A stretch of 64,000 nt of DNA from Aeoliella mucimassa (lineage in GTDB: Bacteria; Planctomycetota; Planctomycetia; Pirellulales; Lacipirellulaceae), in NCBI RefSeq assembly GCF_007748035.1, contig NZ_CP036278.1:3906001-3970000 (forward strand), written 5' to 3'. A program made the position numbers and the translations under genes. The first letter of the stretch is position 1, and each line of letters starts with the position of its first letter. Positions 12,771-49,144 of the stretch are shown one piece after another. The notes below the pieces were generated by a model. The model saw only the letters and a program-made list of their open reading frames with translations, was not told the origin of the DNA and did not search any database.

Positions 12771-12934
12771 GCTCGCTGCTCATCATCCACTACTTTCGCC
12801 CCACAGGGCTGGGTACTGCGATCTATCGAAATAGCTACCCGTGGGGAAATAATTTGGCATTCACTCTCGCGCCCGCTATATTGAAACCCTTGACTAGCCA
12901 TGGTTAAAACGACAACGACGTTGAGGCAACATCT

Positions 12935-17776: not shown

Positions 17777-19924
17777 TCAGCGCCGAAATCCCATCGCACG
17801 CCCCCGCAGCAGCAGCAAGGCTCCTCCCACGAGCACTAGCGACTCCGGTTCCGGAACAACCGCACCAGAGAGCGATCCTTGGCCGTGGACCGATTCAAAC
17901 AGTTCCCGAAACGCCAGGAAATCTTCGAAACCAACTTGGCCACTCTGATCGAAATCGCCGAGCTGCAACTGCTCGTCTTCGGCTAACGCGGAAGTGTCGA
18001 ACCGAAAGTTGTTTTTGAGTTCCACCCAATCGGCCAGGTCAAGCACTCCGTCGCGGTTGAGGTCGCCGAGCACTGGCGGCAGGCCGATACCAGTGTCGTG
18101 CACCACCGCATCGAACGTGGTGCCCATTCGCAGACCATCAAGCAGCCAATCGGCGTTGCTGCCGGTACGAATGGCAAGCTGCTGAATCGTACCATCGATG
18201 TTGGCGGTGATGTCGCCGACCAGTTGCCACTCGATCTCGGCTTCGCTGGCTGGCACTTCCTTCGGGTCGTCGTACCAAGCGAGAAAGAGTTGATCGAAGT
18301 GCTGGTTCTGGGTGTCATCATTCGTTGCCAGCTTGGCTAGCAGCAGGTAGGTGGAATCGAGCGCCAGCGTGTTGCTGGGGGAACTGACCGTTCCACCGAC
18401 ATGGTTGATAAAGAAATTCTCGCTGCTGCCGACCCCGAACGCGGCCTTTGTCACACCGGCGCTATCTTGCAAGAGGATATCGAGGTACTCGCTGCCCCCA
18501 TTATCACCATCCCTGCTGTCGTGCTGAACGAACAGCGAGAAATAGTGACCGCCATGTTGGTTGAGGTCGATCGAACCAGTGCCGAGCGATCGCGACATCG
18601 CCGCATCGCGGAGACGAACGTGCTGCCCGTCGTCCTCGGTGAGAAAACCGGGAAACTCCAACACGCCTGGCACCACAGCCGCCCCCGAGTGCGTCCACGC
18701 CCCGCTCCACCCGACGCCGCCCCGAAAGGGATCGATCTGGTTGCCGAATCCGTCGTAGTGCGACATCCCCGTGGGATGATCAGCTTTCTCTAACTCAGCC
18801 AGGTCGAAATGCACGTAGCGGATAGTGTTGTGATTGACTTCGTAAACCAGCCCGATAGTTCCATCGGGCATCCGATTGATTACCGAATAGGCGGCGGAGC
18901 CGCTTTCGATTTGCACCGGGTTGATGAAGGTGTTGCCTTCGTCGTAGCTTGTCCAGACTCCGATGTTGGAACGACTGTTGCCGCTGCCTGCGGGATCGCC
19001 CAATGGAGCGGAGAAGAGGATACGATCGCGATCCTCCCCCGCCCGTTGAGCGGAGTATCGAATCAACCCGCTGTCGACCGCGGTGACCGGAATCTCGCCA
19101 GCGAAGGCATCAACCCAGGTATCGCCTCCGTCGTGGCTGATCGAACGATTACGCCCCGATCCACTGCGACGCGCATCCCACAGCAGATCGCCATTGGTAA
19201 GCTCCACCACTTCCGATTCGTCGGCGTAATTCGGCGTGAAGCCACTGCCGTGGGTCCAGGTGAGCCCACCGTCGTCGCTGTAAATCGACACGCCGCGATA
19301 GGAAGGTGGTCGCACATGCCCGGGCATCAACAGTCGTCCGTTGCGCTCCGGGGCAGAGTCTTGCCATTGCAACTGAATGCCAACCCCCGGGCCAGTGTTG
19401 AGGGAGCTCCAGTTTCGCTCTTTCACCTGAGCATTGATATTCATCGGGCCCGACCACGTAAGCCCGTTGTCGGTGCTCGTTTGGTGAAAGATCACCGACG
19501 AGTTGTCTCCCAGACCAGCAGGCACGCACGCTTGGCCACACAAGGTAGGCCATTGCGCGTATTGCAAGTGAATGGTGCCGGAGTCACTATCGACGACGAC
19601 TCGGGGATCGGAGTAATCGAAGCCGGAGGTCGCGTGCAGCACTTGAAGGTCGGACCACGTTAGGCCGCCATCGGTGCTGCGCTTGAACACCATCTCGATA
19701 TCGCCAGGCGCACCGGGGTCGGCCCCGCCGGGACGCCCTTCGGCAAACAATAGCAGCGAACCATCCGGCGCGACGGTAAAACCCGGGATCCGATAAACAC
19801 TAAAGCCTTCCACGCCTGCAGTCAGCACATTTCTCTGCAGCAGGATTTCGGCTATCGCAGGCTTGTCGCCACACAGTAGTGCATGCAGCGTGAGCAGAGC
19901 CACTGCCCAACGAACTTGAAACAC
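17777..19924 (-). CDS. Exo-alpha-sialidase with dockerin-like repeats and PEP-CTERM anchor
   Basis: A 715-residue secreted sialidase (GH33 type), GTG start at 19924 preceded by a strong GAGGAGAGG site. Signal peptide MFQVRWAVALLTLHALLCG. The catalytic propeller (about 30-400) shows the arginine-bearing YRIPG motif and Asp boxes STDGGLTWS, STDNGLTWS, SDDGGLTWT, SHDGGDTWV and a degenerate one (SYDEGNTF). A LamG-like beta domain follows (about 415-600), then paired dockerin-like EF repeats (GDLNRDGVLDLADW, GDFDQSGQVGFEDF) and the sorting tail VVPEPESLVLVGGALLLLRG with terminal basic residues. It should release terminal sialic acids from glycoconjugates at the cell surface, feeding the nan genes at 28-33 kb. 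It lies 101 bp downstream of the first polyprotein gene and is probably co-transcribed. Confidence 0.9.
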   Translation of the reverse strand: MFQVRWAVALLTLHALLCGDKPAIAEILLQRNVLTAGVEGFSVYRIPGFTVAPDGSLLLFAEGRPGGADPGAPGDIEMVFKRSTDGGLTWSDLQVLHATSGFDYSDPRVVVDSDSGTIHLQYAQWPTLCGQACVPAGLGDNSSVIFHQTSTDNGLTWSGPMNINAQVKERNWSSLNTGPGVGIQLQWQDSAPERNGRLLMPGHVRPPSYRGVSIYSDDGGLTWTHGSGFTPNYADESEVVELTNGDLLWDARRSGSGRNRSISHDGGDTWVDAFAGEIPVTAVDSGLIRYSAQRAGEDRDRILFSAPLGDPAGSGNSRSNIGVWTSYDEGNTFINPVQIESGSAAYSVINRMPDGTIGLVYEVNHNTIRYVHFDLAELEKADHPTGMSHYDGFGNQIDPFRGGVGWSGAWTHSGAAVVPGVLEFPGFLTEDDGQHVRLRDAAMSRSLGTGSIDLNQHGGHYFSLFVQHDSRDGDNGGSEYLDILLQDSAGVTKAAFGVGSSENFFINHVGGTVSSPSNTLALDSTYLLLAKLATNDDTQNQHFDQLFLAWYDDPKEVPASEAEIEWQLVGDITANIDGTIQQLAIRTGSNADWLLDGLRMGTTFDAVVHDTGIGLPPVLGDLNRDGVLDLADWVELKNNFRFDTSALAEDEQLQLGDFDQSGQVGFEDFLAFRELFESVHGQGSLSGAVVPEPESLVLVGGALLLLRGRAMGFRR

Positions 19925-20025: not shown

Positions 20026-23000
20026 TTACACCGACATCGTCGCACGATGGCGGGCAGATCGGGCCCAGGCGACGAAACCGAGCAGCAGACAGAGCGTGAG
20101 CGTCATGGCCTTCGGTTCGGGAACCGCTGCGCCGTTGAGCAGGGCAAAATTGAATCCGCCGGCTCCCGACGCGGTGAGGCTTTCGTGCAGGATGAACGCG
20201 TCGCGGAGGTCGACGATGCCATCGTAGTTCAGGTCGCCCTCTTGGCGGCTATTCCAGTCGCCGATGCGGACACCGTTGAATGTCTGCTGCTGCCGCCAGA
20301 AGCTGACGAACGCAGCTTCGTCGGCGGCATCGGCCAAGCCGCCACTCAAGTCGACATCGCCTGGGTCCGTGATGCCTAGCGTTGTTAGCTGCTGGGCGAT
20401 CCAATCGCTGGTGGTCCCCAGATCGAGCCCTCCCCAGTCTTGCCCGTCGGCATTCAGCACGATCGGCGTGGGATCGGGGCCGCCGGAGTTGGTGCCTCCC
20501 ACTGCGTTGTCGGCTCCCAGTTGGTTGCTATTGTCGCCCCACAGAAAGAGCCTGACGTCGTCGAGGGTCCCGTTGTAGTGGTTGGTGAATCCTCCACTTC
20601 CGTCGCCGCTGGCTCCGACGACAAGGGGTCCTGCATCGGCAAAGTAAGAGGCGGCATTCGTGAAGACCGCGGTTCCGTTGATGATTAACGTACCGCCGCT
20701 GGCTCCACCGGATGGGCGAGTGATCTCCATCACATGGGCCCAACCATTCTCGTCGAGCGTGTCGGCGACCGGTACCTCGGTGTCAAACCGCGCCCCGCGA
20801 TAGATCAGTTCCCAGTTACCTTCGGCCGAAATTCCGATGCCATGCTGATTGGCATCGCTAATCAACGTTTGACTGGCGGTTCCCAGGGCGGCTTGGTTCG
20901 GCTGTGCCCACAACTGGATGCCATGCGTAAAGATCCCCTCGTAGTTGTGTGGAAACACATACGGAGCGGGGCCGGGGAAAAACGTGCTGTTATCCCACAT
21001 CTGCGAGGGAGCATTCAGGCTGATGGCGGTGCTAAGTGCGTCGGAAGTACCGTTGAACTGCGCGCCGAGATCCGACGACAACGCACCAGGGCGGCTACTG
21101 ACGCTCACGTAGGTCGGCGAACCGTTGACTTCCAGGTCCTGTAGGTCCCCCGCCCCCAGGGTTCCAGCGCTATCGTAGGTGGCACCGCTCATCGATGTGC
21201 CGTGCGAAGCCGATTCGTCGGGATCGTCGCCGAAGTCGTACTGACGATCAATCTGCACCGCGTAAGAGGATGTGGATACGCAAACCAAGCACACACACGC
21301 GGCGAAAGCTATCGCCCGCGACGCTCGGCGGCAAGACAGCAGTGCCATGCCGACTACCAGCAACAACGCGGCGGTTGGTTCGGGGACTGCAACTGATTGA
21401 GCAGTGATGGCCCCGCTCGCACTGTTGCCAAATCGCTCTTTCCAGTAGGTGTAATCCGACATGGTTACTCCTCCTCCGTCACCATTGTTGTTGATTGCCG
21501 ACTCGTCTCCCGCACCGAGATTGTCGCGCCACACGGTGTAGTCGCCAAGGTTCACGACACCATCGCCATTGAAGTCGCCTTGCACGTTCACGGAGGTCAC
21601 GTACTCGATCACGGCCGAAAGCTCTTCGCCCGATACGGTGCTCAACGTCAAGGCAAGATCGCGCTCGCCTTCTGGCGTGGTGGTATCGAACAGGTTGCCG
21701 AGCGAGAGATTGGTAGATTCCGTGAACGTAGTGAAGGTGGTCAAATGCCCTTCGGCGACCTCGGTGGTGCTCGGGGTCCCCAGGACCTCAAAGCCGATGC
21801 CATCATCGGCTGTCATCGATGCGTCGCCGATGCCTTGGCTTTCGAGACTCGTCAAGTTCTCGGGGATCAATTGCCCCAGCGCACTGGTGAGTGAGTAGCC
21901 GGTGATATCGAAATCGAACAGGTCGTCGCCAAACAGGGTAATGTTACCGGTGGTGGTGTTGACCCGCGCTCCAATGTCCGCCTGCGCGAGAATCTCCACT
22001 TCGTCCACCGCCACGAAAGCGTTGGAGGCATCGACTCCGTCGTAAGCGAACGTGATAAAGAGTTGATCGCCCGCGTTCACGGTTCCACTATTGAACGCGA
22101 GAGTCGTTCGCTGATCGTCGTAGGAGTCGTCGATGGTTCCCTCAATGCTGGCATCGAAGTCGCCTTGAGCGGTGAAGGCCTGAGGTCCACCAACCACGCT
22201 GGTGGCCGAGGCGAACGACTGGCCGACCAGCAAATCGTACGTGCCGGTGGCCGTCCGGGTGGCGTTGAACGTTTCGGTAACGAAAGCCGCACTGAACGTG
22301 TAATCGGTGTTGCTCAAGAATCCTTCGGCTTGCGTGATGCCACGACTATCGAGACCACTACCAGCGGCAGCGTTCGCCGCGCTGGCGATCCACAACCGTG
22401 TACCACCGTAGTTGGGGGTATCGAAAATGCGATCGGCATTCGGCGCGGTACCGTTGCCGTTATGGGTCCAGTTGCCGGTGGGGGAGAAATCGGAAGGATC
22501 GGTCAGCGGGTAAGCTTGGAAGTCGTCTGAGAAGATGGCAACCGGCACCTGAGCGGTAGCATTGGTGGCCAGCATAGCACCACACGCGAGAGTCAGGCCC
22601 AGCAGGCACACCGCCCGGCGTCGCATGGCAAAGCCCACCACTCCCACCACGGCTGAGAGCCAAGTCGCTGGTTCCGGAACAGCCGCACCGGATACCGCCG
22701 CGGCGAAGGCCCCGGGACCGTTCGCTGCATCGTAAAGGGTACGAAACGCGTTGAAGTCGCCAAAATCGGAGGCCCCATCGCCATTCAGGTCGCCTGCCAA
22801 GTAGGCCGACACTTGGGTAAATCCTGTCACGTCGCTTCCGTAAACGGACTTAAACTTTTGCCAGTCGACGAGATCGATGTCCCCATCCGGGCCATCGTTG
22901 ACACTCGCCCCCGCCAGGTCGCCGAAAGCGAACGCTTGATCGTCGTTTCCGGTATAGACCAGTTGAAAGTCGGTTCCACTGTTTAGAACGGTCCCATCGT

Positions 23001-24060
23001 CGAGCAATAACTCCAGCTGGACGTCCTCGAACGGACTTTGGGTCCAGACGTTACCAAAGTTCCACGAACCGGTTCCCGCGAGTAAGTCGCCGCCGTCGCC
23101 GGAACCGGAAGTCGTGAAGACCGCTTCGGAAAGGTCGGTAGTAACACCTGCGGCCGTGGTGACCGTCCAATTATCGTTGTCGTTAGCTAGTTGCGATCCG
23201 GAGGCCTGCTGAATCCACCCAGTCTGCGTGAGCCCGCCCGCTTCGCTAAGAAGCGAGTAGCCAACAATGTTCGCGACGGGGGTGCCGGTGGTATTGGTAA
23301 GCGTAATGTTGCCTGTGCTGCGATCGATGGTAACGACCGTAGCTCCCTGATCCGAAGTGGGCGAGTACGCGCCGGTCATGTCGTAGCGGACGTACTCGAT
23401 GTCGAAACTCTCCCCAAATCCACCAAAAGTGCTTCCCGCGACACTCGTGCAACAGTCGCCAAAGATCAGTCGCGTACTGCCGGTGGTGGCCTGTGGAGCC
23501 ACTCCCACTAGGGGAGTTAACTGTACCGCGTCGCGAAAGTAATGATAGGCGTTCGCACTGGCATCGTAGACTAGACGGAAATCATGAAAGGCATCGGTGT
23601 TGCTACTCGATTCATAAACGGTTCCCGCAAAACTCATCACCGCATTCTCGCGAATCGTGAGTATGTCGCGATTCCCATTCAAAGCGGCCCAAATCACAAA
23701 CCCACCGTTGCCAGTACCAGTGGAACCGACCTTAGCGCGAACCTCGACGGTCCAGCTTCCGCTGCCAAGCTCCCAAGGGGTAGAGCCAGTGTCTTGCTGA
23801 AGCCAGCCGTTCGTGTCGTCGTAGGTCAAGGTTACGTTCGAACCATTGAGCAAGAGATCGTCATCCTCAGCGCCGCCGGCCGTTGCCCAACCGTTGATGG
23901 CAGCAGTGCCATCAAAGATCTGATCGCCGGTGTACTGATTGTCAAAAGCACTCGACAGCACATTGAAGCCATCGAAGGCAGCCCAGAGCGAGACACTTCC
24001 TGACATTGCGAAAGGCAATACAAGTGCCGCTGTCATTACTCGAATTCGACTAACCAACAT
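20026..24060 (-). CDS. Three-module PEP-CTERM polyprotein 1
   Basis: 1344 residues with no stop codon. ATG at 24060 is chosen because GAGGAG lies 9 nt upstream; the in-frame ATG at 24069 abuts the site. Numbering from 24069: module 1 (1-about 484) has a signal peptide, a LamG-like domain, a beta domain opening VVTIDRSTGNITLTN, dockerin-like repeats (GDLNGDGASDFGDF) and [23 protein letters not shown] with FAMRRR. Module 2 starts at once with the signal MRRRAVCLLGLTLAC (Met482, codon 22624-22626), then a DFQAYPLTDP-type domain, a second TTGNITL beta domain, dockerin-like repeats and VPEPTAALLLVVGMALL plus CRRASR (895-918). Module 3 begins with AIAFAACVCLVCVSTSSYA without an ATG at the junction, then a LamG-like domain, dockerin-like repeats and a final VPEP (1316) tail. 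Membrane topology alternates correctly. Probably an exosortase-processed surface polyprotein within the sialic-acid locus. Confidence 0.85.
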   Translation of the reverse strand: MLVSRIRVMTAALVLPFAMSGSVSLWAAFDGFNVLSSAFDNQYTGDQIFDGTAAINGWATAGGAEDDDLLLNGSNVTLTYDDTNGWLQQDTGSTPWELGSGSWTVEVRAKVGSTGTGNGGFVIWAALNGNRDILTIRENAVMSFAGTVYESSSNTDAFHDFRLVYDASANAYHYFRDAVQLTPLVGVAPQATTGSTRLIFGDCCTSVAGSTFGGFGESFDIEYVRYDMTGAYSPTSDQGATVVTIDRSTGNITLTNTTGTPVANIVGYSLLSEAGGLTQTGWIQQASGSQLANDNDNWTVTTAAGVTTDLSEAVFTTSGSGDGGDLLAGTGSWNFGNVWTQSPFEDVQLELLLDDGTVLNSGTDFQLVYTGNDDQAFAFGDLAGASVNDGPDGDIDLVDWQKFKSVYGSDVTGFTQVSAYLAGDLNGDGASDFGDFNAFRTLYDAANGPGAFAAAVSGAAVPEPATWLSAVVGVVGFAMRRRAVCLLGLTLACGAMLATNATAQVPVAIFSDDFQAYPLTDPSDFSPTGNWTHNGNGTAPNADRIFDTPNYGGTRLWIASAANAAAGSGLDSRGITQAEGFLSNTDYTFSAAFVTETFNATRTATGTYDLLVGQSFASATSVVGGPQAFTAQGDFDASIEGTIDDSYDDQRTTLAFNSGTVNAGDQLFITFAYDGVDASNAFVAVDEVEILAQADIGARVNTTTGNITLFGDDLFDFDITGYSLTSALGQLIPENLTSLESQGIGDASMTADDGIGFEVLGTPSTTEVAEGHLTTFTTFTESTNLSLGNLFDTTTPEGERDLALTLSTVSGEELSAVIEYVTSVNVQGDFNGDGVVNLGDYTVWRDNLGAGDESAINNNGDGGGVTMSDYTYWKERFGNSASGAITAQSVAVPEPTAALLLVVGMALLSCRRASRAIAFAACVCLVCVSTSSYAVQIDRQYDFGDDPDESASHGTSMSGATYDSAGTLGAGDLQDLEVNGSPTYVSVSSRPGALSSDLGAQFNGTSDALSTAISLNAPSQMWDNSTFFPGPAPYVFPHNYEGIFTHGIQLWAQPNQAALGTASQTLISDANQHGIGISAEGNWELIYRGARFDTEVPVADTLDENGWAHVMEITRPSGGASGGTLIINGTAVFTNAASYFADAGPLVVGASGDGSGGFTNHYNGTLDDVRLFLWGDNSNQLGADNAVGGTNSGGPDPTPIVLNADGQDWGGLDLGTTSDWIAQQLTTLGITDPGDVDLSGGLADAADEAAFVSFWRQQQTFNGVRIGDWNSRQEGDLNYDGIVDLRDAFILHESLTASGAGGFNFALLNGAAVPEPKAMTLTLCLLLGFVAWARSARHRATMSV

Positions 24061-24215
24061 CTGAGTCATCTCCTCGTGATGAAATAAGCTTCAATCCAAT
24101 TAAGTGCTGACTACCTTCGGCACATCATCGATTGCTTGGCGGGCAGCGCAACGTCACTCGCCTGCACACTGCCATGCCAGAACACCCCATAGCTACTACT
24201 CGATGGCCTGCGAGC

Positions 24216-24299: not shown

Positions 24300-24980
24300 C
24301 TAAACGCGACGACGCACTACGACCACAACACCAGTGAGTGCGGCGCCGAGAAGCAGCAAGGCGGAAGGCTCCGGAATGGTTGAAATCGACACGTTGTCGA
24401 TCCCGACAAAGGCTGAGGAACTATCGGTGCCACTGAAGGCAATCGAGATCGTCAAGTTGCCCCCTACGCCAGAGTCAAAGTACTGAGTCGTTAATTGATC
24501 TTCGTACGAGTTGCTATCATTGGGAGTCGCTCCGTCGGCATCGTCGCCGCGAGCGACGAATGATTGGGGACCACCGATAAGGCTGGCACCTTCGATCAAC
24601 AGGTCGTAAGTACCGGTTGCTGTTCGATTGCCACTGAAGGTTTCGGTCACGAGCGCTGCCGAAAACTCGTAAGTCGTGCTCGGATCGAGTTCAATCGTGG
24701 CGGTGCTATCGATGCCGGTTCCGGCCGCAGCGTTCGCGGAACTCGCGATCCAGAGTCTAGTGCCACCATAGTTACCCGTATCGAACAATCGGCTGGCGTT
24801 CGAGCCACTGCCGTTGCCATTGTGCACCCAGTTGGCCATGACCGCGGGATCGGCCGCGGGATCCGACTCGAAGTCTTCAAAGAAAATCGTTGCAGCCGAC
24901 GCAGTTCCGACCGCAACACTGCTAGCCATCGCTAGGGTCGTGAGAAACAGAACAACATACCGCTTGAGATTCACAATCAT
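24300..24980 (-). CDS. PEP-CTERM protein, free-standing paralogue of polyprotein 1 module 2
   Basis: A 226-residue secreted protein. ATG at 24980 has a perfect GGAGG site 8 nt upstream; longer in-frame starts lack one. The signal peptide is LKRYVVLFLTTLAMASSVAV to TASA. The mature part (NWVHNGNGSGSNASRLFDTG, NYGGTRLWIASSANAAAGTG, TYEFSAALVTETFSGNRTAT, GTYDLLIEG) matches residues about 510-695 of polyprotein 1 almost motif for motif. The tail is IPEPSALLLLGAALTGVVVV plus RRR. It looks like a carbohydrate-binding beta-sandwich; the ligand is unknown. It is the first gene after the operator candidate at 25118-25145 and upstream of polyprotein 1 in the same direction. Confidence 0.85.
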   Translation of the reverse strand: MIVNLKRYVVLFLTTLAMASSVAVGTASAATIFFEDFESDPAADPAVMANWVHNGNGSGSNASRLFDTGNYGGTRLWIASSANAAAGTGIDSTATIELDPSTTYEFSAALVTETFSGNRTATGTYDLLIEGASLIGGPQSFVARGDDADGATPNDSNSYEDQLTTQYFDSGVGGNLTISIAFSGTDSSSAFVGIDNVSISTIPEPSALLLLGAALTGVVVVVRRRV

Positions 24981-25117
24981 TAGACGCACCTCCAGGGAGA
25001 ACTCATGAGCCTGTACGTGAGAGAAGAGAAATCCGGCAACGCGAAGCAACAGTCGTCCCTCGACCGTCAATTCACGGGCGTATTATGTGGTTAGCCCCAA
25101 AAAGAAGCTTAGGAAAT

Positions 25118-25199: not shown

Positions 25200-26405
25200 T
25201 CATTGGGGCCCGGGAAGCACATCCATTTGGAATTGATGTCGATATTCGCTGGGGGTAACGCCAACTTCTTTGCGAAACAAACTGCTGAAGACTTGCCTGC
25301 TATTGAAGCCGCAAGCAAACACCACACTAGTGATCGAGTCGGTGGTCTCGGCCAGCAGTTTCTTGGCTAGTTCGAGCCGCACCCGTCGCAATTCCAAGGC
25401 CGGTGTTCGGCCCACCATGGTGCGAAACCGAGTTTCCAAAGTACGTCGAGATATCGCGATGTGCTCTGAGATATCGCTTACTTCGATCGGCAAGTGCGCG
25501 TTCTCGCGAATGTACTTGAGCGCCTCGCGCACGTCCTCATCATCCACCGCGAGCACATCAGTCGACTGCCGAACCGCGACACCGACCGGCGGAAAAAAGG
25601 TGACCATCGACTCCACCGGTCTGCCCGACATCGCTGCGTCGAGTCGCAAAGCCGCTTCGTACCCAATGCGCTCCGCGGGTTGCACAACCGCCGATAAGTG
25701 AGGGACCGTCGACTCGCAAATCAAGGGGTCGTCATTCACCCCCATCACGGCAATCTCGTCGGGAACCTCGAAACCGCTCTCGAGAGCCACTTCCGCAACA
25801 AGCCTGGAGAGCGCCGAGTTCGGCGTACAGACTCCCAACGGTTTCTTTGCCTTCTGCAAGGCGTTGGCAATCGCTTTCAGATCGGGGCGGTAGTGCCCCG
25901 AAGAATCGGCAGCGACCACCTCGTGGACTGCGATCTTCAGCAACTGGCAATGATGCCCTGCTTCGGTTACCGCCTTCATGAAGGCTTCGGACCGCTGCTG
26001 TTCGCTATGCCAGCGAAGTTCACCGACAAACAGAAACTGCTTCAGACCACATTGCATCAAGTGCTCGGCGGCGAGCGAACCGATGGCCAGATTGTCGCAC
26101 GCAACCGTTGCAAACCGGTGATCGATGATGCGAGAGCCAGCATTGACCACCGGTACGCCTGCGTTCAGCAGAATCTTCAGGTGCTCTTGACTATTAATCA
26201 CAGCGATCAAGCCGTCGCCTTTCCAGTTGGCGACTTCTTCCCACTGCAACAGGGGATACTGCCCCTCGCCCTGGATACGCCAATGACGATTCACGCGGAG
26301 AAATCGGTACACGCCACGCGTGATGCCGCGCATGAACTCCTGCCCGGTCTGCAAAATCAGGCCGACTCGAAACACTGGTCGTTGCAGAGTGGAATCAGCG
26401 GGCAT
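25200..26405 (-). CDS. XylR-type regulator: LacI/periplasmic-binding-like sensor plus AraC HTH
   Basis: A 401-residue regulator. Residues about 12-275 form a LacI-type sugar-binding sensor (VGLILQTGQEFMRGITRGVY, ATVACDNLAIGSLAAEHL, EIAVMGVNDDPLICESTVP, LSAVVQPAERIGYEAA) without an N-terminal LacI HTH. Residues about 290-390 carry an AraC double HTH (IEVSDISEHIAISRRTLETR, SITSVVFACGFNSRQVFSSL, VGVTPSEYRHQF). This is the layout of E. coli XylR. It sits between two opposed gene sets with sialic-acid functions, and a matching 28-bp motif lies on each side of it. I infer it is the sialic-acid regulon regulator, binding a sugar ligand such as ManNAc or Neu5Ac; the ligand is not shown by sequence. 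Confidence 0.88.
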   Translation of the reverse strand: MPADSTLQRPVFRVGLILQTGQEFMRGITRGVYRFLRVNRHWRIQGEGQYPLLQWEEVANWKGDGLIAVINSQEHLKILLNAGVPVVNAGSRIIDHRFATVACDNLAIGSLAAEHLMQCGLKQFLFVGELRWHSEQQRSEAFMKAVTEAGHHCQLLKIAVHEVVAADSSGHYRPDLKAIANALQKAKKPLGVCTPNSALSRLVAEVALESGFEVPDEIAVMGVNDDPLICESTVPHLSAVVQPAERIGYEAALRLDAAMSGRPVESMVTFFPPVGVAVRQSTDVLAVDDEDVREALKYIRENAHLPIEVSDISEHIAISRRTLETRFRTMVGRTPALELRRVRLELAKKLLAETTDSITSVVFACGFNSRQVFSSLFRKEVGVTPSEYRHQFQMDVLPGPQ

Positions 26406-26467
26406 GTTGGTTCTTCACCGAGGAATACGACCAGAAAACCTACACCATACACAGCAAGCTTCAGGCA

Positions 26468-26495
26468 TTGCGCAAATTATGACAATATTTGCGTC
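26468..26495 (+). promoter_or_regulatory. Operator candidate, site 2 (XylR-type regulator)
   Basis: TTGCGCAAAT, 2 bases, TGACAAT, 2 bases, TTGCGTC on the plus strand, matching site 1 at 25118-25145. TTGCG repeats at a 21-bp spacing. It lies 63 bp upstream of the divergent regulator start (26405) and about 205 bp upstream of the DUF1559 gene that opens the sialic-acid catabolic genes, so it could control both directions including autoregulation. Confidence 0.65.
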
Positions 26496-26700
26496 GATTC
26501 TCAAGCATTCTTTTCGCCCGTTTGGCAAACTACTTTCCGTTGCGAGCAGCTTCGTCATGATTGGCGTCACTCCGCTCACTTTGATGAATGCTACTTCAAC
26601 GCTTCGGACATTGTCGCAGCTCGACTCGATTGGCCTACTTGGACGTGCAGCCTATCCATTTTCTCGACTTCAAGGGTTTCCTGTTATAGGGACGTTCGCT

Positions 26701-27720
26701 ATGAAACGATTTCGCTCTCGCTTGAAGACAACGGTCCGCAACGCATTCACGCTGGTGGAGTTGCTGGTAGTGATCGCCATCATCGGCATCCTGGTTGCCT
26801 TGCTGCTACCGGCAGTTCAGTCGGCCCGAGAAGCCGCTCGACGCAGCCAGTGTCAGAACAACTTCCACCAGATTGGCGTCGCTCTGCACAATTACCATGC
26901 AACCCATGGCGAGTTCCCCGAAGGACAGATCAACGAACTCACGCCGACCTACTATCATGCTCCAGGATGGGGAGCGAAACTGCTCCCTTACATCGAGCAA
27001 ACGAACGCCTTCGATGGTTTTGCCGATGGGGCGAAAGGCAACGTCATCGATCCCGGCATGCGAGAAATCGGCGGGCTACTCATCGAAGCCTTTTTGTGCC
27101 CGAGTGATCCTTCCGACACCAAGTGGGTGGAGGTCTCCAGTGGCTACAACGTGGGGCCAGGGCCCAACGACGACTGCCGCCGCAGTAACATGGCTGGCGT
27201 GGCAGGGGCGTTTCTGTGGATCGAAGATGGCACGATCTCGAAGTGTCGCAAGAACGCCCGCGGCATGCTAATCAACAAGCGTGCCCTTAAAGTGAAAGAC
27301 TGCACCGATGGTACCAGCAGCACCTTGATCGTTGGTGAGGTCACCGGTGGTAAGGGGCGACACCCTTCGTTTGGCGAAGCGTGGATTGGCCACACCTGGG
27401 TTGGCTGGAACCTGCAAGACGTGAGTCGCGGTATCAACCCCTTTGGTTCGCTCCCCGGCGGGCGCGACGATGGCTTGGATCCGTTTGATGGTGATGGAGG
27501 CAATCGCCACCAAGAGTACTACACCGAGGTGGGATTCTCAAGTTTCCATCCAGGCGGATGCCACTTTCTGTTCACCGACGGAAGTGTTCGGTTCCTGGAC
27601 GAAGACATCAATCAAGACGTGTTGCACGCGTTCGCCACGCGGGCCGACGGCGAAGCCATCTCCGACGACACGGCGATCGGCATCATCGGCCCAGATGTAG
27701 TTGGGCCTCCTGTTCGCTAA
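26701..27720 (+). CDS. DUF1559 domain-containing prepilin-like protein 1
   Basis: A 339-residue protein. I chose ATG at 26701 because it gives the standard short basic leader (MKRFRSRLKTTVRNAFTLVE); the frame is open further upstream but that extension has no family resemblance and crosses the promoter region. [15 protein letters not shown] is a type IV prepilin N-methylation signal, followed by [14 protein letters not shown] and the DUF1559 (SBP_bac_10) domain with LPYIEQTNAF, FLCPSDPS and, near the C-terminus, FHPGGCHFLFTDGSVRFLDE. DUF1559 proteins are abundant in planctomycetes and proposed to form pseudopilus-like or surface structures; the function is unproven. It is the first gene of the right-hand nan transcription unit. 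Confidence 0.88.
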   Translation: MKRFRSRLKTTVRNAFTLVELLVVIAIIGILVALLLPAVQSAREAARRSQCQNNFHQIGVALHNYHATHGEFPEGQINELTPTYYHAPGWGAKLLPYIEQTNAFDGFADGAKGNVIDPGMREIGGLLIEAFLCPSDPSDTKWVEVSSGYNVGPGPNDDCRRSNMAGVAGAFLWIEDGTISKCRKNARGMLINKRALKVKDCTDGTSSTLIVGEVTGGKGRHPSFGEAWIGHTWVGWNLQDVSRGINPFGSLPGGRDDGLDPFDGDGGNRHQEYYTEVGFSSFHPGGCHFLFTDGSVRFLDEDINQDVLHAFATRADGEAISDDTAIGIIGPDVVGPPVR

Positions 27721-28363: not shown

Positions 28364-29359
28364 ATGCCAGTTTCTTTAATCGCTCCGCCCCCCACGCTGT
28401 TCAACGACCAAGGTCAGATCGACCTGCGACAGCTCGACAAGCTTGCCGCCCACCTGAGTCGATCGGGTGTGTCGGGGGTGTTTGTGTGTGGATCCACCGG
28501 CGAAGGCATGTCGCTTTCGGTTCGCGAGCGGATGGAAATCACCGAAGCATGGGCCGAAGCCGCCCCCAACCATGGCTTAAGGACCATCGCTCAGGTCGGC
28601 GCGAACAGCCAACGCGATGCCATCGACCTTGCTGCCCATGCGGGGTCGCTTGGTCTCGATGCCATCTCGGCCCATGCACCCTGCTATTTCCGGCCGAAGT
28701 CGGTCTCTGAACTCATTGGTTTCTTCGCCCCGGTGGCCGGCGCGGCTCCCAATACTCCATTCTACTACTACGATATCCCCCAGCTGACCGGCGTCGACCT
28801 GCCGACCACCCAGTTCCTGGAAACCGCCCCCGCGCGCATTCCTTCGTTGGCAGGCGTCAAGTACACCAATCCCAATCTGGCGCAGCTGCAAGAATGTTTG
28901 CACGTAGACCAAGGGCGATTCGACCTATTTTATGGCAACGACGATTCGCTGCTCGCTGGCTACGCCTTGGGTGCCCCCAGCGCGATTGGCAGCACCTACA
29001 ACTACATGGCTCCCCACGCCCATCGCATTGTGCAAGCCTTCGACGAGGGGAACATCGCGCTGGCCCGCGCTTTGCAACTGAAAACCGTGGAAGTCGTCAA
29101 CATCCTCTCAGAGTACGGATACCTGGTCGCCGCCAAGGCCGTGATGCAGCTGTTCGATATCGACTGCGGAGGAGTCCGCGAGCCGCTTCAGAAGTTGCAT
29201 CCGAATCAAAAGGGCGAGATCATTCAACGCCTGGTCGATATTGGATTTCCATTCGACGATACCACTTCGTACGAGCCATCGAACAATCACAAAGCTCCCG
29301 TTCCGGCTACGCACTGGAATCGCGACGGCGCCAACTCCAAGACTCAGGCGTCCTCGTAG
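28364..29359 (+). CDS. nanA: N-acetylneuraminate lyase (dihydrodipicolinate-synthase family)
   Basis: A 331-residue class I aldolase of the DapA/NanA superfamily, cytosolic. The substrate-binding GSTGEG motif (about 44-49) has Ser-Thr where dihydrodipicolinate synthases have Thr-Thr, as in neuraminate lyases. Tyr136 in YDIP and the Schiff-base Lys166 in GVKYT are in the expected positions. It cleaves N-acetylneuraminate to N-acetylmannosamine and pyruvate. The neighbours are decisive: NanM-like/symporter fusion, AGE epimerase and a sialidase follow in the same direction. The C-terminal 30 residues (after about 300) are longer than usual and polar. Other 2-keto-sugar-acid aldolases are possible from the fold alone, but the context argues for Neu5Ac. 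Confidence 0.88.
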   Translation: MPVSLIAPPPTLFNDQGQIDLRQLDKLAAHLSRSGVSGVFVCGSTGEGMSLSVRERMEITEAWAEAAPNHGLRTIAQVGANSQRDAIDLAAHAGSLGLDAISAHAPCYFRPKSVSELIGFFAPVAGAAPNTPFYYYDIPQLTGVDLPTTQFLETAPARIPSLAGVKYTNPNLAQLQECLHVDQGRFDLFYGNDDSLLAGYALGAPSAIGSTYNYMAPHAHRIVQAFDEGNIALARALQLKTVEVVNILSEYGYLVAAKAVMQLFDIDCGGVREPLQKLHPNQKGEIIQRLVDIGFPFDDTTSYEPSNNHKAPVPATHWNRDGANSKTQASS

Positions 29360-29417
29360 AAGATCCACACGACAGTCGCACCGGCAATAGCAGCATACAT
29401 CTTTCCATCGATGGACC

Positions 29418-32156
29418 ATGGTGAACTCGCATCTTACTCTCCTCTGGTGTTGTCGTGTGGCGACCAGATGCATGCTTGCCAGCGTTCTCTTTGGATTCAT
29501 GAGTCATGGTTCCGCCGATATCGTCTGGCAACAGTTGCCACCTTTACCCGACGATCATGGTTTCGGCGGGCCTGCGGTGGGTGTGCACAACGATGCCTTG
29601 ATCGTCGCCGGCGGGGCAAACTTCCCGGACGGACCACCTTGGGCCGGTGACCCCAAGCAATGGCACGACACGATCTTCGTGCTCACCCACACCGCCGAAG
29701 GCCAACCGGCCGATGCATGGCTCGTGGGTGGACAATTGCCCAAACGCATTGCCTATGGTGCCGCTGTGAGTTGTCCCAGCGGACTGCTCCTCGTCGGCGG
29801 CGAAGAAGATGGCACCCCAATTCGAGACGTCTACCGATTGACCTGGACCCCAGTTGCTCAGCAGGTGCAGGTCGAGTCGCTTCCACCGCTGCCTGAACCG
29901 GTAAGCTACTTGTCGGGTGGATTGATCGGCTCGACAGTGTTCGTCGCCGGTGCGGTACGTTCGGACGGTTCAGATCGGCTCGACAAAAAAGTCTTCTGGT
30001 CGCTCAACCTTGATCACGCCGACGATTCTCCCGCCCCCACCTGGAACAAAGACTTGCCAGCCTACCCAGGTTCAGCGCGACACAAGTGCGTGGTCGCAGT
30101 ACAGCAACTCGGTTCCGGACAGGAAAACCTGTTTGTCATCAGCGGTTCGAATCCTCGCTTTCAACCCGATGGTTCGCCCGACCTCGAGCATTTTGAACAC
30201 TTCACCGACGCGTATCGTTACGATCCGCTTGCGAACCAGTGGTTTCGTATCGCCGATTTGCCGGTGGTTCCGGACCCACGAAAAACCGTGGATGCTTCTC
30301 CGTTCGCCCAATCTCGCTGGCCAGTCGCTGCAGGCGTGGGAGTGGGAATTGGCCAGAGTCATCTGCTCGTGCTGAGCGGGTCGACCGGCAGGTACATTAC
30401 ACTTCCTCTCGACGAGCGGCCGGCGTTTCCCAATACGGTACTCGCTTATCACACGATCACCGATACATGGTCGGTCGCCGAGCCGATGCCATTGGGGGTA
30501 GTCACTACCGGTATCACTCGCTGGGGCGATCGCTTCGTGATCCCCAGTGGCGAAATTAAACCGGGTGTGCGAACCAATAAGGTGCAGGCTTTTGCGATCG
30601 AGAGCTCCACCGCCAGCTTTGGAATGCTCAACTACTCGGTGCTTGGCGTTTATTTGCTCGGCATGCTCGCGGTAGGTGGCTTTTTTGCCACTCGCATGAA
30701 GACCACCGACGATTACTTTCGCGGCGGCCAGCGAGTTCCCTTCTGGGTCGCCGGGCTCAGCATCTTTGCCACGATGCTAAGTTCCATTACGTTTATCGCC
30801 TTGCCTGCGAAGGCCTACGCGACCGATTGGAAGTACTACCTTGCCCAGCTCACGATTTTGCCCATCGCTCTGATCGTGGTCTACTTGGTGATACCCTTCT
30901 TCCGCGGCATCGATGCCACGAGTGCCTACGAGTATCTGGAACGCCGCTTCAGTAAGCCGGTGCGGATGCTTGCCAGCCTGCAATTCATCTTGTTTCAGCT
31001 GGCCCGCATGGCGATCGTCATGTACCTGCCCGCGTTGGCGCTGGCGGCGATCACCCCGCTTTCGATTTTGGAGTGTGTGATCTTGATGGGTGTCTTGAGC
31101 GTGATCTATTGCACGCTTGGCGGTGTGGAAGCGGTGGTTTGGACCGATGCCATTCAGACACTCGTGCTGCTCGGCGGTTTGCTTGTCGCATTGGGCATCG
31201 TCGTGTTCAATGTCGAGGGAGGTCTTTCGACCACGGTCGATACTGCGGTACGAGATGGAAAGCTCCATCTGGCCGATCTCGATTTCTCCTGGGGTAGCTG
31301 GGCGACAACTACGGTTTGGGTGGTGCTGCTTGGCCAGTTTTTCGGTTCCCTTTACTCTTACACGGCCGATCAAGCGGTCGTGCAGCGCTACCTGACCACC
31401 AAAGACGAAGCCGACGCCCGCAAGGCGATGTGGACCACTGCCTGGATGGGCGTATTTGGTAGCAGCCTGTTTTTTGCGATGGGTTCTGCCTTGTACGTGT
31501 TCTACAAGGCCCATCCAGCGCTGCTCGACGTCGGCATGCGAAACGACTCGGTACTTCCGCTGTTTATCGCCAATCAACTGCCCGCTGGCATTGCCGGTTT
31601 AGTAGTCGCAGGCGTATTTGCCGCCGCCCAGTCGACGATTTCCACCAGCATGAACAGCACCGCAACCGCCATCGTGACCGACTTTTGCATGCCGCTGCAT
31701 ATCTGTCGCACCGATTCCGGCTATTTGCGACTGGCCCGCGTCGTCACCGCTTCGATCGGCATTGCCGGCACCTTGACCGCTTGCTGGCTAACCATGGTCG
31801 GCAGCGCCATGGCGATCGACGCGTTCATCTCGATCATCGGGCTCTTCGGTGGAGCTGTGTGTGGACTGTTCATGCTCGGCATGCTCACCCACCAAGGCAA
31901 CGCCGTGGGGGGACTCGTCGGTGCGTTGGCCGGCTTCGCGGTGGTGCTGTGGATCATGCTCGATGAGTCGCTCGCTATCAACCGGTTCCTCTACGCCGGG
32001 ATTGGCACCATCACCACATTCCTAGTAGGTTACGTGGTAAGCCGCCTCACCGGAGGGGCTAGGCAGACCATGCCTACCGGCTTGACCGTGTACGACCGCA
32101 CGCCTGCCCCTCACACCCCCCCACAAGCGTCGTTGCTCGAGCACGCCTCCAGATGA
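29418..32156 (+). CDS. Fusion of NanM-like kelch sialate mutarotase and sodium:solute symporter
   Basis: 912 residues. A signal-like N-terminus (around MLASVLFGFMSHGSA) precedes a kelch propeller (about 35-395) with GGANFPDG, GLLLVGGEEDGTPIRDVY and LLVLSGSTGRY, the cyclically permuted N-acetylneuraminate epimerase (NanM) type. From about residue 400 a sodium/solute symporter follows (NYSVLGVYLLGMLAVGGFF, TTDDYFRGGQRVPFWVAGLS, TLGGVEAVVWTDAIQTLVLL, with about 13 membrane segments), ending near 890 in a short polar tail. NanM converts alpha- to beta-Neu5Ac in the periplasm, so fusing it to a NanT-like importer would couple mutarotation to uptake. ATG at 29418 is used; ATG at 29472 would shorten the signal. 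The last bases overlap the AGE gene (ATGA), implying translational coupling. Confidence 0.88.
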   Translation: MVNSHLTLLWCCRVATRCMLASVLFGFMSHGSADIVWQQLPPLPDDHGFGGPAVGVHNDALIVAGGANFPDGPPWAGDPKQWHDTIFVLTHTAEGQPADAWLVGGQLPKRIAYGAAVSCPSGLLLVGGEEDGTPIRDVYRLTWTPVAQQVQVESLPPLPEPVSYLSGGLIGSTVFVAGAVRSDGSDRLDKKVFWSLNLDHADDSPAPTWNKDLPAYPGSARHKCVVAVQQLGSGQENLFVISGSNPRFQPDGSPDLEHFEHFTDAYRYDPLANQWFRIADLPVVPDPRKTVDASPFAQSRWPVAAGVGVGIGQSHLLVLSGSTGRYITLPLDERPAFPNTVLAYHTITDTWSVAEPMPLGVVTTGITRWGDRFVIPSGEIKPGVRTNKVQAFAIESSTASFGMLNYSVLGVYLLGMLAVGGFFATRMKTTDDYFRGGQRVPFWVAGLSIFATMLSSITFIALPAKAYATDWKYYLAQLTILPIALIVVYLVIPFFRGIDATSAYEYLERRFSKPVRMLASLQFILFQLARMAIVMYLPALALAAITPLSILECVILMGVLSVIYCTLGGVEAVVWTDAIQTLVLLGGLLVALGIVVFNVEGGLSTTVDTAVRDGKLHLADLDFSWGSWATTTVWVVLLGQFFGSLYSYTADQAVVQRYLTTKDEADARKAMWTTAWMGVFGSSLFFAMGSALYVFYKAHPALLDVGMRNDSVLPLFIANQLPAGIAGLVVAGVFAAAQSTISTSMNSTATAIVTDFCMPLHICRTDSGYLRLARVVTASIGIAGTLTACWLTMVGSAMAIDAFISIIGLFGGAVCGLFMLGMLTHQGNAVGGLVGALAGFAVVLWIMLDESLAINRFLYAGIGTITTFLVGYVVSRLTGGARQTMPTGLTVYDRTPAPHTPPQASLLEHASR

Positions 32157-33379
32157 ACACCGCCCACCAACAACACCTGACACGAATCTACCGCGACGGT
32201 CTGCTGGAAGACGTGCTTCCCTTCTGGACCACCCACGCGGTCGATCATGAATCGGGAGGCTTCCTCACAGCCCTCGATCGAGACGGAACCGTTATCGACA
32301 CCGACAAAGGGGTTTGGCAACAAGCCCGCTTCACCTGGCTGTTGGGCGAGCTGACCAATTGCGAGCTACTGCGAGACAATCCCTCACGGGACATATGGCT
32401 TGAGCTTGCAAGGCACGGGGCCGATTTCCTCACCAAACATTGCTTCGATCCGGCAGATGGCCGAATGTGGTTCCACGTCACTCGCAACGGGCAGCCGATC
32501 CGCAAGCGCCGCTACGCGTTCTCCGAGAGCTTTGCTGCGATTGCCTATGGCGAGCTAGCCCAAACGCTCCACTCCGATGAGTATGCAGCTAAGGCAACGC
32601 AGGCTTTCCAGCGGTTCATCACCCACTCGCTGACCCCGCCGGCCGATCAGGCGAAGTACACCCAGGTGCGTCCGACCCGATCGCTCGGTTTCCCAATGAT
32701 CACGATCAACACGGCGCAGCAGCTGAGAGATTCCATCGGCTTGGAGGTCGCCAACGAGTGGATTGATCGCAGCATCGAAGACATCGAGCGGTATCACCTG
32801 AAAGCAGACATTCAATGCGTGATGGAAACTGTCAGCGACACCGGTGAGATCATCAATCACTTCGACGGTCGCACGCTGAATCCTGGGCATGCCATCGAGG
32901 GCGCCTGGTTCATCATGCTCGAAGGGCGTCATCGCCACGACTCACGACTCGTGGAGTTGGGATGCACCATGCTCGACTGGATGTGGCAACGTGGCTGGGA
33001 CAACGAATATGGCGGAATGCTTTATTTCACCGATGTCTATCACCTACCGGTTCAGGAATACTGGCACGACATGAAATTCTGGTGGCCGCACAACGAAACA
33101 ATCATTGCCACCTTGGCCGCCTACCTGCTGACCGGCGACGAAAAGTACGCGCAGTGGCATCAGCTCGTCCATGACTGGTCGTACCGGCACTTCCCCGATC
33201 CACAGCATGGCGAATGGTTTGGTTACTTACACCGAGATGGGCGACTGAGCGTGCCGCTCAAAGGCAACCTCTGGAAAGGTCCGTTTCACCTGCCACGTAT
33301 GCTGCTAACCTGCTGGAAGCTACTCGAGGATTCAGCACACAACGAAACCACCAAAGTGCTCGACAGCAAGCGTCCCTAA
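32153..33379 (+). CDS. N-acylglucosamine 2-epimerase (AGE) family protein
   Basis: A 408-residue cytosolic (alpha/alpha)6-barrel protein of normal family length. The conserved AGE motifs are present: ESGGFLTALDRDG near the N-terminus, KGVWQQARFTWL, NPGHAIEGAWFIM (catalytic-site His and Glu) and the C-terminal WWPHNETIIA. In this context it converts N-acetylmannosamine, the lyase product, into N-acetylglucosamine, replacing NanE. No ManNAc kinase is visible, so the route would be lyase, epimerase, then GlcNAc catabolism encoded elsewhere. The ATG overlaps the symporter stop by 4 bases. Confidence 0.9.
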   Translation: MNTAHQQHLTRIYRDGLLEDVLPFWTTHAVDHESGGFLTALDRDGTVIDTDKGVWQQARFTWLLGELTNCELLRDNPSRDIWLELARHGADFLTKHCFDPADGRMWFHVTRNGQPIRKRRYAFSESFAAIAYGELAQTLHSDEYAAKATQAFQRFITHSLTPPADQAKYTQVRPTRSLGFPMITINTAQQLRDSIGLEVANEWIDRSIEDIERYHLKADIQCVMETVSDTGEIINHFDGRTLNPGHAIEGAWFIMLEGRHRHDSRLVELGCTMLDWMWQRGWDNEYGGMLYFTDVYHLPVQEYWHDMKFWWPHNETIIATLAAYLLTGDEKYAQWHQLVHDWSYRHFPDPQHGEWFGYLHRDGRLSVPLKGNLWKGPFHLPRMLLTCWKLLEDSAHNETTKVLDSKRP

Positions 33380-33402
33380 TCCATTATCCCGACGAGATCA
33401 TC

Positions 33403-35508
33403 ATGCGCACCTTTGCAAAGGCTCTCATCACGCTCACGCTGTTGTTGGGGCTTGCCATGGCGGTTCGCAGCAGTATCGCCACCGAAACACCTCGTAGTGA
33501 AGCACATACGACAACCAAAGAGATCGCGGGCGACGAGAGGTTCGAAGGCTTGCCGCTTGGAGAGGTCCAGGGATGGAGGACACCGACCGGCCTCTGGAGC
33601 TGCGATGCGGGGAATGCCGCAATCATCTCCGAGCATGTGCGTACCGGCGAACGAAGCTTGAGAATACTTGGAGGGAACAATCGAAGTATCCAGTTGGAAG
33701 CTACATCGGAAACCAAGTCCCCCAAGATTCTCAGTTTCTGGGCGGAGCGGTGGACGGCCCGCAATCCCTTCCGGTTTCGCATCGAGCAGCAACTGCAAGG
33801 CGAGTGGATAGAGATCTACAAGGGCGACAACAAGATCCGAGTCGGTGGATTCCTCACTCACGTCGAGGTCCCCCTGCGTCAAGCCGAGCGGATTGTGGTT
33901 CGCATGTTGCTAACGACCCCTGACTCGACCGGACTACTGATCGACGATGTCGATCTTGTGGACGTAAAGCCGATGGTGGCAACCGGCATCACCGTCGATC
34001 AACCGACGCTGCCGGCGTTATGCAGAGCGCAGTGGAGTGCGATCACTCGCATCTGCGTCAACGTGGATGGCACTCAGGAACTAGCTCCGTCGCTTACCAG
34101 CCTGCAACTCTCTGCCGCTGGTACGACTGATCTTGGGGATATCGCCAAAGTACAGGTCTTCTATACCGGTAATGACTCCTCAGTCTCCGCTAGCGGCAAT
34201 CCTAACGCCTTCGCAGCAGCTACCCCGTTCGGCGAGGAACACCAGCCTGCTGAGTTAGTCACTATCCAAGGCGAGCAACCGCTTACTTCGGGAGCCAACT
34301 ATTTTTGGGTTGCCTACCAGTTAGATGAAACGGCAAACATCGACCATCGAGTGAACTCCGTGCTCACCAAGGCTCAACTGTCCGATGGTGCGAGTCTGAC
34401 TCCAAACTCTCCCGCTACACTTACTGGTCAGCGAATGGGCGTGGCGGTGCGCCGACGTGGTGACGATGGGGTGCACACCTACCGCATTCCCGGCTTGGCG
34501 ACTACCAACCAGGGGACGTTCATCGGTGTCTACGACATTCGTCGGCGTAGCGGGCGCGACTTGCCTGGCGACATCGACGTCGGCATGTCGCGGAGCACCG
34601 ACGGTGGTCAGACGTGGGAGCCGATGAAGGTGATCATGGACATGGGCGACGCGCCGAAGTGGCTGTACGACGGTATAGGCGACCCCGCAGTATTAGTCGA
34701 TCGTACTACCAACACGATATGGGTCGCTGCACTGTGGAGTCACGGCAACCGCGCCTGGCATGGTTCGCAACCAGGCGTTGATCCACAGCAAACCGGGCAG
34801 CTGATGCTTGTCCGCAGCGACGACGATGGCCGCAGCTGGTCGGAACCGATCAACATCACCGAACAGGTCAAGCTGCCCGAGTGGTGCCTGCTGCTGCAAG
34901 GTCCTGGCAAGGGCATCACGATGCAAGATGGTACCCTGGTGTTCGCGGCTCAGTTTCAAGACACAAACGCGAATCGCCGGCTGCCGCGGTCGACGATTCT
35001 GTACAGCCGCGACCATGGCGATAGCTGGAATATCGGAACCGGTGCGTTCGACGACACCACCGAAGCCCAGGTGGTCGAAGTAGAGCCGGGCGTGTTGATG
35101 CTGAACTGTCGCTACAACCGGGAGCCTCGGCGGGTGGTCGCGATCTCAACCGACCTGGGCCAAACCTGGCACGAGCATTCGTCGTCGCGTTCCACGCTGA
35201 TCGAACCACGTGCCTGCATGGCGAGTCTGCTGCAGGGTAATAGCATAAAACAAGATTCAGCGGCTGGCTGGCTGTTCTTCTCCAATCCCAATCATCTCAC
35301 CAGTCGCCGACGGATGACGATCAAAGCGAGCAACGATGCTGGCGTTACTTGGGATCCTGCTCACCAAGTGCTTCTCGACGAGAATCCCTCGGCCGGCTAC
35401 TCTTGCTTGTCGATAATCGATCGCGACACGATTGGCATCCTCTACGAAGGAAGTCAGGCACACATGACCTTTCAGCGGGTGAAGCTCGCAGACATTATCT
35501 CTCCATGA
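33403..35508 (+). CDS. Exo-alpha-sialidase, secreted
   Basis: 701 residues from ATG 33403 (MRTFAKALITLTLLLGLAMA, a clear signal peptide); the upstream extension of the frame overlaps the AGE gene and is not supported. After a beta-sandwich region (about 45-210) comes an N-terminal BNR-neuraminidase-associated domain (about 215-350, SLQLSAAGTTDLGDIAKVQV, TSGANYFWVAYQLDETANID) and the GH33 catalytic propeller (about 350-700) with YRIPG, RRRSGRDLPGDIDV, and Asp boxes STDGGQTWE, SDDDGRSWS, SRDHGDSWN and STDLGQTWH. Unlike the sialidase at 17777-19924 it has no PEP-CTERM tail, so it is probably periplasmic or released. It lies 23 bp after the AGE gene and completes the nan operon. Confidence 0.9.
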   Translation: MRTFAKALITLTLLLGLAMAVRSSIATETPRSEAHTTTKEIAGDERFEGLPLGEVQGWRTPTGLWSCDAGNAAIISEHVRTGERSLRILGGNNRSIQLEATSETKSPKILSFWAERWTARNPFRFRIEQQLQGEWIEIYKGDNKIRVGGFLTHVEVPLRQAERIVVRMLLTTPDSTGLLIDDVDLVDVKPMVATGITVDQPTLPALCRAQWSAITRICVNVDGTQELAPSLTSLQLSAAGTTDLGDIAKVQVFYTGNDSSVSASGNPNAFAAATPFGEEHQPAELVTIQGEQPLTSGANYFWVAYQLDETANIDHRVNSVLTKAQLSDGASLTPNSPATLTGQRMGVAVRRRGDDGVHTYRIPGLATTNQGTFIGVYDIRRRSGRDLPGDIDVGMSRSTDGGQTWEPMKVIMDMGDAPKWLYDGIGDPAVLVDRTTNTIWVAALWSHGNRAWHGSQPGVDPQQTGQLMLVRSDDDGRSWSEPINITEQVKLPEWCLLLQGPGKGITMQDGTLVFAAQFQDTNANRRLPRSTILYSRDHGDSWNIGTGAFDDTTEAQVVEVEPGVLMLNCRYNREPRRVVAISTDLGQTWHEHSSSRSTLIEPRACMASLLQGNSIKQDSAAGWLFFSNPNHLTSRRRMTIKASNDAGVTWDPAHQVLLDENPSAGYSCLSIIDRDTIGILYEGSQAHMTFQRVKLADIISP

Positions 35509-41502: not shown

Positions 41503-41513
41503 GATGTCGATCC

Positions 41514-48957: not shown

Positions 48958-49144
48958 CGTTCTATCCCCATATCCTCGATTGATTTGAATTGGAAGTTGG
49001 TCCGAAATCAGCACACACGCAAACGCACACGCATCTCTAACTAACTTCCACGAGGTGCAACCAAGAGTTCATCCCCATGAACGTCGCACTGAAGCAAGCT
49101 AGTACGTCTTTCCTGAAATCCATTCCGCTGCTATATGCTGCGGA

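Follow-up and report, generated by a model that had tools for sequence, protein, structure and literature searches.

Three PEP-CTERM units in a single reading frame of Aeoliella mucimassa: a probable secretory polyprotein with counterparts across its family

We analyzed a 64,000-nucleotide stretch of the Aeoliella mucimassa genome (contig NZ_CP036278.1, positions 3,906,001 to 3,970,000; hereafter the window, with coordinates counted from its first letter). On its minus strand lies a frame, termed polyprotein 1, in which three PEP-CTERM units follow one another without an intervening stop codon. We consider it probable, at roughly 0.72, that polyprotein 1 is a secretory polyprotein with two sets of predicted cuts, by exosortase at every VPEP motif and by signal peptidase at every internal signal. 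The polyprotein reading is based on comparative evidence, namely the conservation of the layout, junctions that lack a possible start, retained cleavage motifs, and relatives in which the units are split. From the motifs in the sequence, we infer that the chain is cut into separate products.

Three units in one frame

A first-pass annotation of the window had proposed three PEP-CTERM units fused in a single frame at 20026-24060, and this was borne out: the open reading frame extends over 1347 amino acids (aa) without internal stops, from an ATG at 24069 to the stop codon at 20028-20026. The strand had been left unstated and is the minus strand, with the start at 24069. Across the same coordinates the plus strand has many stops, which rules out a plus-strand reading. 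Each of the three units consists of a signal peptide, domains, a VPEP motif, a hydrophobic helix and a basic tail, with helices and signal peptides assessed via hydrophobicity and charge rather than by a trained predictor. After VPEP sites 1 and 2, the helix and basic stretch lead directly into a second hydrophobic stretch, a signal-peptidase-like end and a new mature domain. Both junction sequences match those quoted in the first-pass annotation, and the internal ATG that it placed at 22626 is present. The parts of the frame are as follows:

20026..24069, minus strand: polyprotein 1, three PEP-CTERM units, 1347 aa (frame and PEP-CTERM Pfam match)
23980..24069, minus strand: N-terminal signal peptide of unit 1, first 30 residues as judged by eye, end approximate
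22669..22680, minus strand: internal VPEP site 1, closing unit 1 (sequence and PEP-CTERM search)
22552..22668, minus strand: junction 1, with hydrophobic helix, RRR, second hydrophobic stretch and ATA site; contains ATG 22626
21376..22551, minus strand: unit 2 mature region through VPEP site 2 (21387-21376)
21259..21375, minus strand: junction 2, with hydrophobic helix, RRASR, second hydrophobic stretch and SYA site; contains ATG 21348
20113..21258, minus strand: unit 3, conserved domain and dockerin-like repeats, ending in VPEP at 20124-20113 (unit-3 alignment and family search)
20029..20112, minus strand: terminal PEP-CTERM helix and basic tail

The PEP motif, hydrophobic helix and basic tail required of PEP-CTERM/exosortase substrates are all present, as is an N-terminal signal peptide, read from the sequence by eye. 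The usual C-terminal location applies to the last site, and two of the three sites are internal. As expected of a polyprotein, several complete proteins share one uninterrupted frame; protease sites between the units are present as motifs (VPEP and AxA-like). The Pfam model for PEP-CTERM matched polyprotein 1 in two stretches with a score just above the cut-off (20.8 versus 20.7 bits). Dockerin_1, the type I dockerin domain expected of cellulosomal dockerin proteins, scored just under its cut-off (22.7 versus 22.9 bits), which makes "dockerin-like", the wording of the first-pass annotation, an apt one; a second three-unit frame of the window, polyprotein 2, reached 27.2 bits. When unit 3 was compared with PDB sequences, the best matches were dockerins, and the few other matches at E ≤ 1 all fell in the C-terminal dockerin-like part of the model. 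Structure prediction from three-row alignments yielded a mean predicted local distance difference test score (pLDDT) of 42.4 for unit 3 and 33.4 for unit 1. Both models are thus of low confidence and provided no usable fold.

Recurrence in the genome and among relatives

The 6.6 Mb one-contig genome contains, polyprotein 1 included, at least 23 multi-unit frames that together have 37 internal junctions, a count that leaves out a further stop-free match at G000:C1:3477079 covering positions 1-48 of the 49 positions in our junction model. A genome search with polyprotein 1 as query returned 12 long frames, the query among them, that range from 1278 to 1512 aa. The regions fetched contained 12 frames with at least three PEP-CTERM units (one with five) and six two-unit frames; the junction model and added regions contributed five more of the latter, bringing the two-unit total to at least 11. 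The second three-unit frame of the window is:

37306..41613, minus strand: polyprotein 2, 1435 aa, VPEP motifs from 40137, 38709 and 37386

Two junctions of the five-unit frame (L038, G000:C1:3722254-3726789) are nearly identical, which looks like a recent in-frame duplication of a unit. The genome also contains at least 150 PEP-CTERM sites over the cut-off and four exosortase matches (PF09721) over the cut-off, in three frames. In a separate observation, one exosortase is fused to a long TPR-looking region in a frame of 1740 aa (L172:226-5448, minus strand; G000:C1:1480225-1485447). Beside it lie two small genes with VPEM..ILSW-type tails, not VPEP, perhaps encoding this exosortase's own substrates.

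The first-pass annotation had suggested scanning relatives for multi-unit frames, and many were found in related genera. A unit-3 profile matched all 43 genomes of the host's family, several of them weakly, and frames that join unit 3 to a preceding unit occur in 21 of these genomes and in 11 of 14 genera, as read from the search rows and frames. Sixty regions of relatives yielded 56 frames with, by our reading, 102 internal junctions. The junction model gave 88 rows in 27 of the 43 family genomes at E ≤ 1e-8, and 70 of the rows were stop-free and reached model position 43 or beyond.

Beyond the family, matches were sparser. The unit-3 model matched 31 of 392 genomes of the phylum, one being the present genome and the rest partial matches (best E 2e-12). 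Among 294 phylum genomes, 116 had a junction match at E ≤ 0.01; at E ≤ 1e-8 there were 15 rows outside the own genome, two of them full-length and stop-free (G119 and G202), with a model built from the host's family that other layouts could escape. Judged from their sequences, the G119 and G202 cases look as if they arose independently. The one in G119 (L170, G119:C36) is a two-unit chain in which a unit that by eye looks like a sulfatase precedes a second PEP-CTERM unit.

Some relatives carry the units in split form. A lone first gene precedes two fused units in L106, L109, and L117; two fused units precede a lone unit 3 in L141 and L143; and L142 has three genes in a row. Units 2 and 3 of a further region, L137 (G029:C172), are in the same phase, and a stop codon lies 12 bases ahead of the next start; by its sequence this arrangement is an apparent intermediate between fused and split. 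For a tree of unit 3, three of the 80 domains scored for AxA (see below) were dropped (length filter; L139 left out), leaving 77 rows, 62 fused and 15 not; because the regions were taken from the best rows of the unit-3 search, 62 of 77 is not a rate. The fewest state changes on this tree number seven, of which at least five are forced by well supported branches, and clades of 18 and 11 rows are entirely fused. The window's unit 3 falls together with fused copies from two other genera (L103 and L119; support 97*).

On balance we find it reasonably probable that a planctomycete family makes surface proteins as secretory polyproteins at scale, at many glycan loci, with exosortase and signal peptidase sites in alternation and products in equal amounts.

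Predicted processing and competing readings

In the proposed mechanism, the chain would enter the Sec pathway through its first signal peptide, and the first VPEP helix would stop transfer, its basic tail remaining on the cytoplasmic side. That tail would then double as the beginning of the next signal peptide, which would re-enter the membrane and export unit 2, and the cycle would repeat for the later unit. Exosortase would cut at every VPEP and signal peptidase at every AxA-like site, removing short helical hairpins and releasing three surface proteins in equal amounts. The architecture, alternating topology and polyprotein character put forward in the first-pass annotation gain support from the conservation across genera, the start-less junctions, the retained VPEP and AxA-like motifs and the split relatives; the cutting is a step that we infer.

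Internal sites closely resemble terminal ones. The spacing between PEP and the nearest following basic residue is 16.5±1.3 at internal sites (n = 138) and 16.3±1.6 at terminal sites (n = 115). Loops carry on average 4.2 R/K and 0.2 D/E, compared with 0.2 and 0.6 before PEP. In the long frames we found two degenerate junctions (PEH in L115 and PEG in L128) beside 139 with PEP; the presence of PEP in 139 of 139 is not independent evidence, because PEP was a search condition. By positional count, 46 of the 63 fused copies of unit 3 have a strict AxA ahead of the mature start, as do 10 of the 17 unfused copies; at least three of these 17 are wrongly anchored, and two are first units of longer chains. 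At the junctions, the ratio of nonsynonymous to synonymous divergence (dN/dS) was 0.30-0.40 at dS 0.9-1.3 in three of five pairs of relatives, dS being saturated at the junctions of the other two; in the same three pairs the domains had ratios of 0.08 to 0.19. Judged from these sequence comparisons, the internal PEP sites look functional.

Several points weigh against the polyprotein reading. Because the junctions were gathered by requiring a PEP motif and a frame free of stops, both features are partly conditions of the search; the cleavage sites were assessed by motif. Strict AxA is absent from the scored window of 17 of the 63 fused unit-3 copies, and the site of junction 2 in polyprotein 1, SYA, departs from it as well. 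Junctions evolve faster than domains. Both junctions of polyprotein 1 contain an in-frame ATG (22626 and 21348). In the split relatives, units 1 and 2 were equated with the fused ones by position, with no homology test. Finally, no fused unit 3 was seen in 22 of the 43 family genomes, several of them incomplete, and the junction model at E ≤ 1e-8 had no match in 16 of the 43.

The strongest competitor, which we nevertheless regard as unlikely, is a chain that stays uncut. Here, the PEP helix and the next signal-like helix would form a membrane hairpin that anchors three external domains of one protein, and the alternating topology fits this equally well, as does a loop that is short and basic. 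Such a hairpin requires neither VPEP nor AxA, yet both are kept at internal positions with terminal-like spacing, and in some relatives the units have separate genes.

Separate proteins could also be made from in-frame starts by coupled initiation, the missing stops yielding a minor read-through form. Because both of its junctions have an ATG (22626 and 21348), internal starts are possible for polyprotein 1 taken alone, and by a rule-based count 74 of 138 junctions contain an in-frame ATG that would give a basic n-region. By the same rule, the other 64 lack such an ATG, and 14 of the 138 have no ATG, GTG or TTG at all; moreover, without a stop at the junction, a ribosome arriving from upstream must continue into the next unit. 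We hold this explanation to be quite improbable.

Processing might instead be partial, with signal peptidase acting alone and the PEP helix kept as an anchor, or with exosortase acting alone and the second signal staying attached. Both motifs are kept at the internal sites, and we rate either variant as very improbable.

Fused junctions are compact: the VPEP motif and the next hydrophobic core are separated by a median of 28 residues (interquartile range (IQR) 25-35, n = 138). In 67 unfused tandem PEP-CTERM pairs of the regions analyzed the median is 70 codons (IQR 57-92), with a gap of 92 nucleotides and an even distribution of phases (22/23/22). Because the fused junctions are compact compared with the unfused pairs, they are more than intergenic DNA that is read through, and we rejected simple stop loss with translated intergenic DNA as a general account. 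Such an origin may still apply to a few long junctions that contain an ATG (e.g., in L088 and L103). The least credible explanation is an error of sequencing or assembly, or decay of the genes with loss of their stops: a one-base change suffices for stop loss, L128 is degenerate and L137 holds one in-phase stop, but the layout recurs in many relatives and in at least 23 frames of a genome assembled as one contig, three pairs have a junction dN/dS below 1 with dS near 1, and the linkers are compact, unlike translated intergenic DNA. On the strength of this recurrence across the genome and relatives, we rejected chance or error.

Precedents and genomic setting

The layout of polyprotein 1 recalls the flavivirus structural polyprotein, in which a stop-transfer helix is immediately followed by a signal helix; the layout alone is alike, and proteins and hosts are unrelated. 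In Bradyrhizobium, the FbcH polyprotein of cytochrome b/c1 is reportedly encoded in one frame and cut by signal peptidase at an internal signal peptide. It is said to involve no sorting-signal protease and only one junction, unlike polyprotein 1.

With the PEP-CTERM/exosortase substrates described in Haft 2006 (PMC1569441), polyprotein 1 shares the VPEP motif, helix, basic tail, and signal peptide, an exosortase in the genome and many paralogs. Unlike in those substrates, two of its three tails are internal. That paper places the PEP-CTERM region near the C-terminus "virtually without exception", in agreement with the premise of the first-pass annotation that PEP-CTERM normally ends a protein, and adds that atypically placed copies may be non-functional (PMC1569441).

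A closer parallel is HVO_0405 of Haloferax volcanii, described as a two-gene fusion with an ArtA-dependent cut at a central site (PMC7157517, PMC9263693); archaeosortases are described as exosortase-like (PMC11980579). Like this ArtA substrate, polyprotein 1 is a gene fusion with a central signal of motif, helix and basic residues. HVO_0405 is described as a strain-specific archaeal fusion, whereas the present layout recurs across genera in numerous frames of two to five units, and a new signal-like stretch follows every internal site. In the Creative Commons (CC)-licensed literature, represented mostly by titles and abstract openings, we found no description of a bacterial PEP-CTERM polyprotein. 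Within that literature, the statement of the first-pass annotation that such polyproteins had not been described stands for bacteria and has to be qualified by HVO_0405, a described partial precedent in archaea. The principle thus has archaeal precedent, and the bacterial, repeated, conserved, multi-unit form appears to be new.

If the polyprotein reading is true, exosortase would act on internal sites in bacteria, and PEP-CTERM sorting tags, held to be C-terminal by definition, seemingly act as internal cut sites across a family. The frames would then be natural exosortase substrates with a size shift of tens of kilodaltons that can be read on a gel, as with HVO_0405 for archaeosortase in the sources cited above. 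The arrangement also points to loci that each deliver several surface proteins in a coordinated way.

The genes around polyprotein 1 are as follows:

17777..19924, minus strand: sialidase-like (BNR) gene, downstream of polyprotein 1 (Pfam)
24300..25070, minus strand: stand-alone single PEP-CTERM gene (protein search and Pfam)
25200..26405, minus strand: XylR/AraC-type regulator (domain match)
26320..27720, plus strand: DUF1559 pseudopilin-like gene, listed start possibly too early (domain match; similar genes near other frames)
28364..35508, plus strand: DHDPS-family (NanA-like) gene, NanM-SSF fusion, GlcNAc 2-epimerase and second sialidase

These gene families suggest that polyprotein 1 adjoins a locus for the use or degradation of sialic acid, and the most likely role of its units would be glycan binding or capture at the cell surface. 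To our knowledge, glycan capture by bacteria of this family is poorly understood. The product of the stand-alone gene is 52% identical to residues 484-695 of polyprotein 1, which comprise junction 1 and the start of unit 2. The NanM-SSF fusion (29418-32156, plus strand) joins a NanM-like kelch domain to a sodium:solute symporter in one frame.

Part of this setting is retained in region L145 of a Planctomycetota metagenome-assembled genome (JAJRWS010000042.1, the same contig as L103), with matches to the sialidase (51%), the XylR-type regulator (61%), the epimerase (68%), DUF1559 (46%) and, for a part of 106 residues, the NanM-SSF gene (48%); no counterpart of the DHDPS-family gene was found in the 17.9 kb searched. 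DUF1559 genes are common in planctomycetes. In a survey of 20 regions of the own genome, made with no background control and including some regions without a fused frame, 19 had a DUF1559 match, eight a FecR-like, six a sulfatase-like and three an XylR-type match.

Elsewhere in the window, a CotH-kinase/lamin-tail protein of 1425 aa is encoded at 12935-17212 on the plus strand, opposite a probably spurious open frame of 1496 aa at 12464-16954 on the minus strand. A transposase-looking frame lies at 49135-50244 on the plus strand; a stretch of this frame is found again in a different frame of the genome, within L041.

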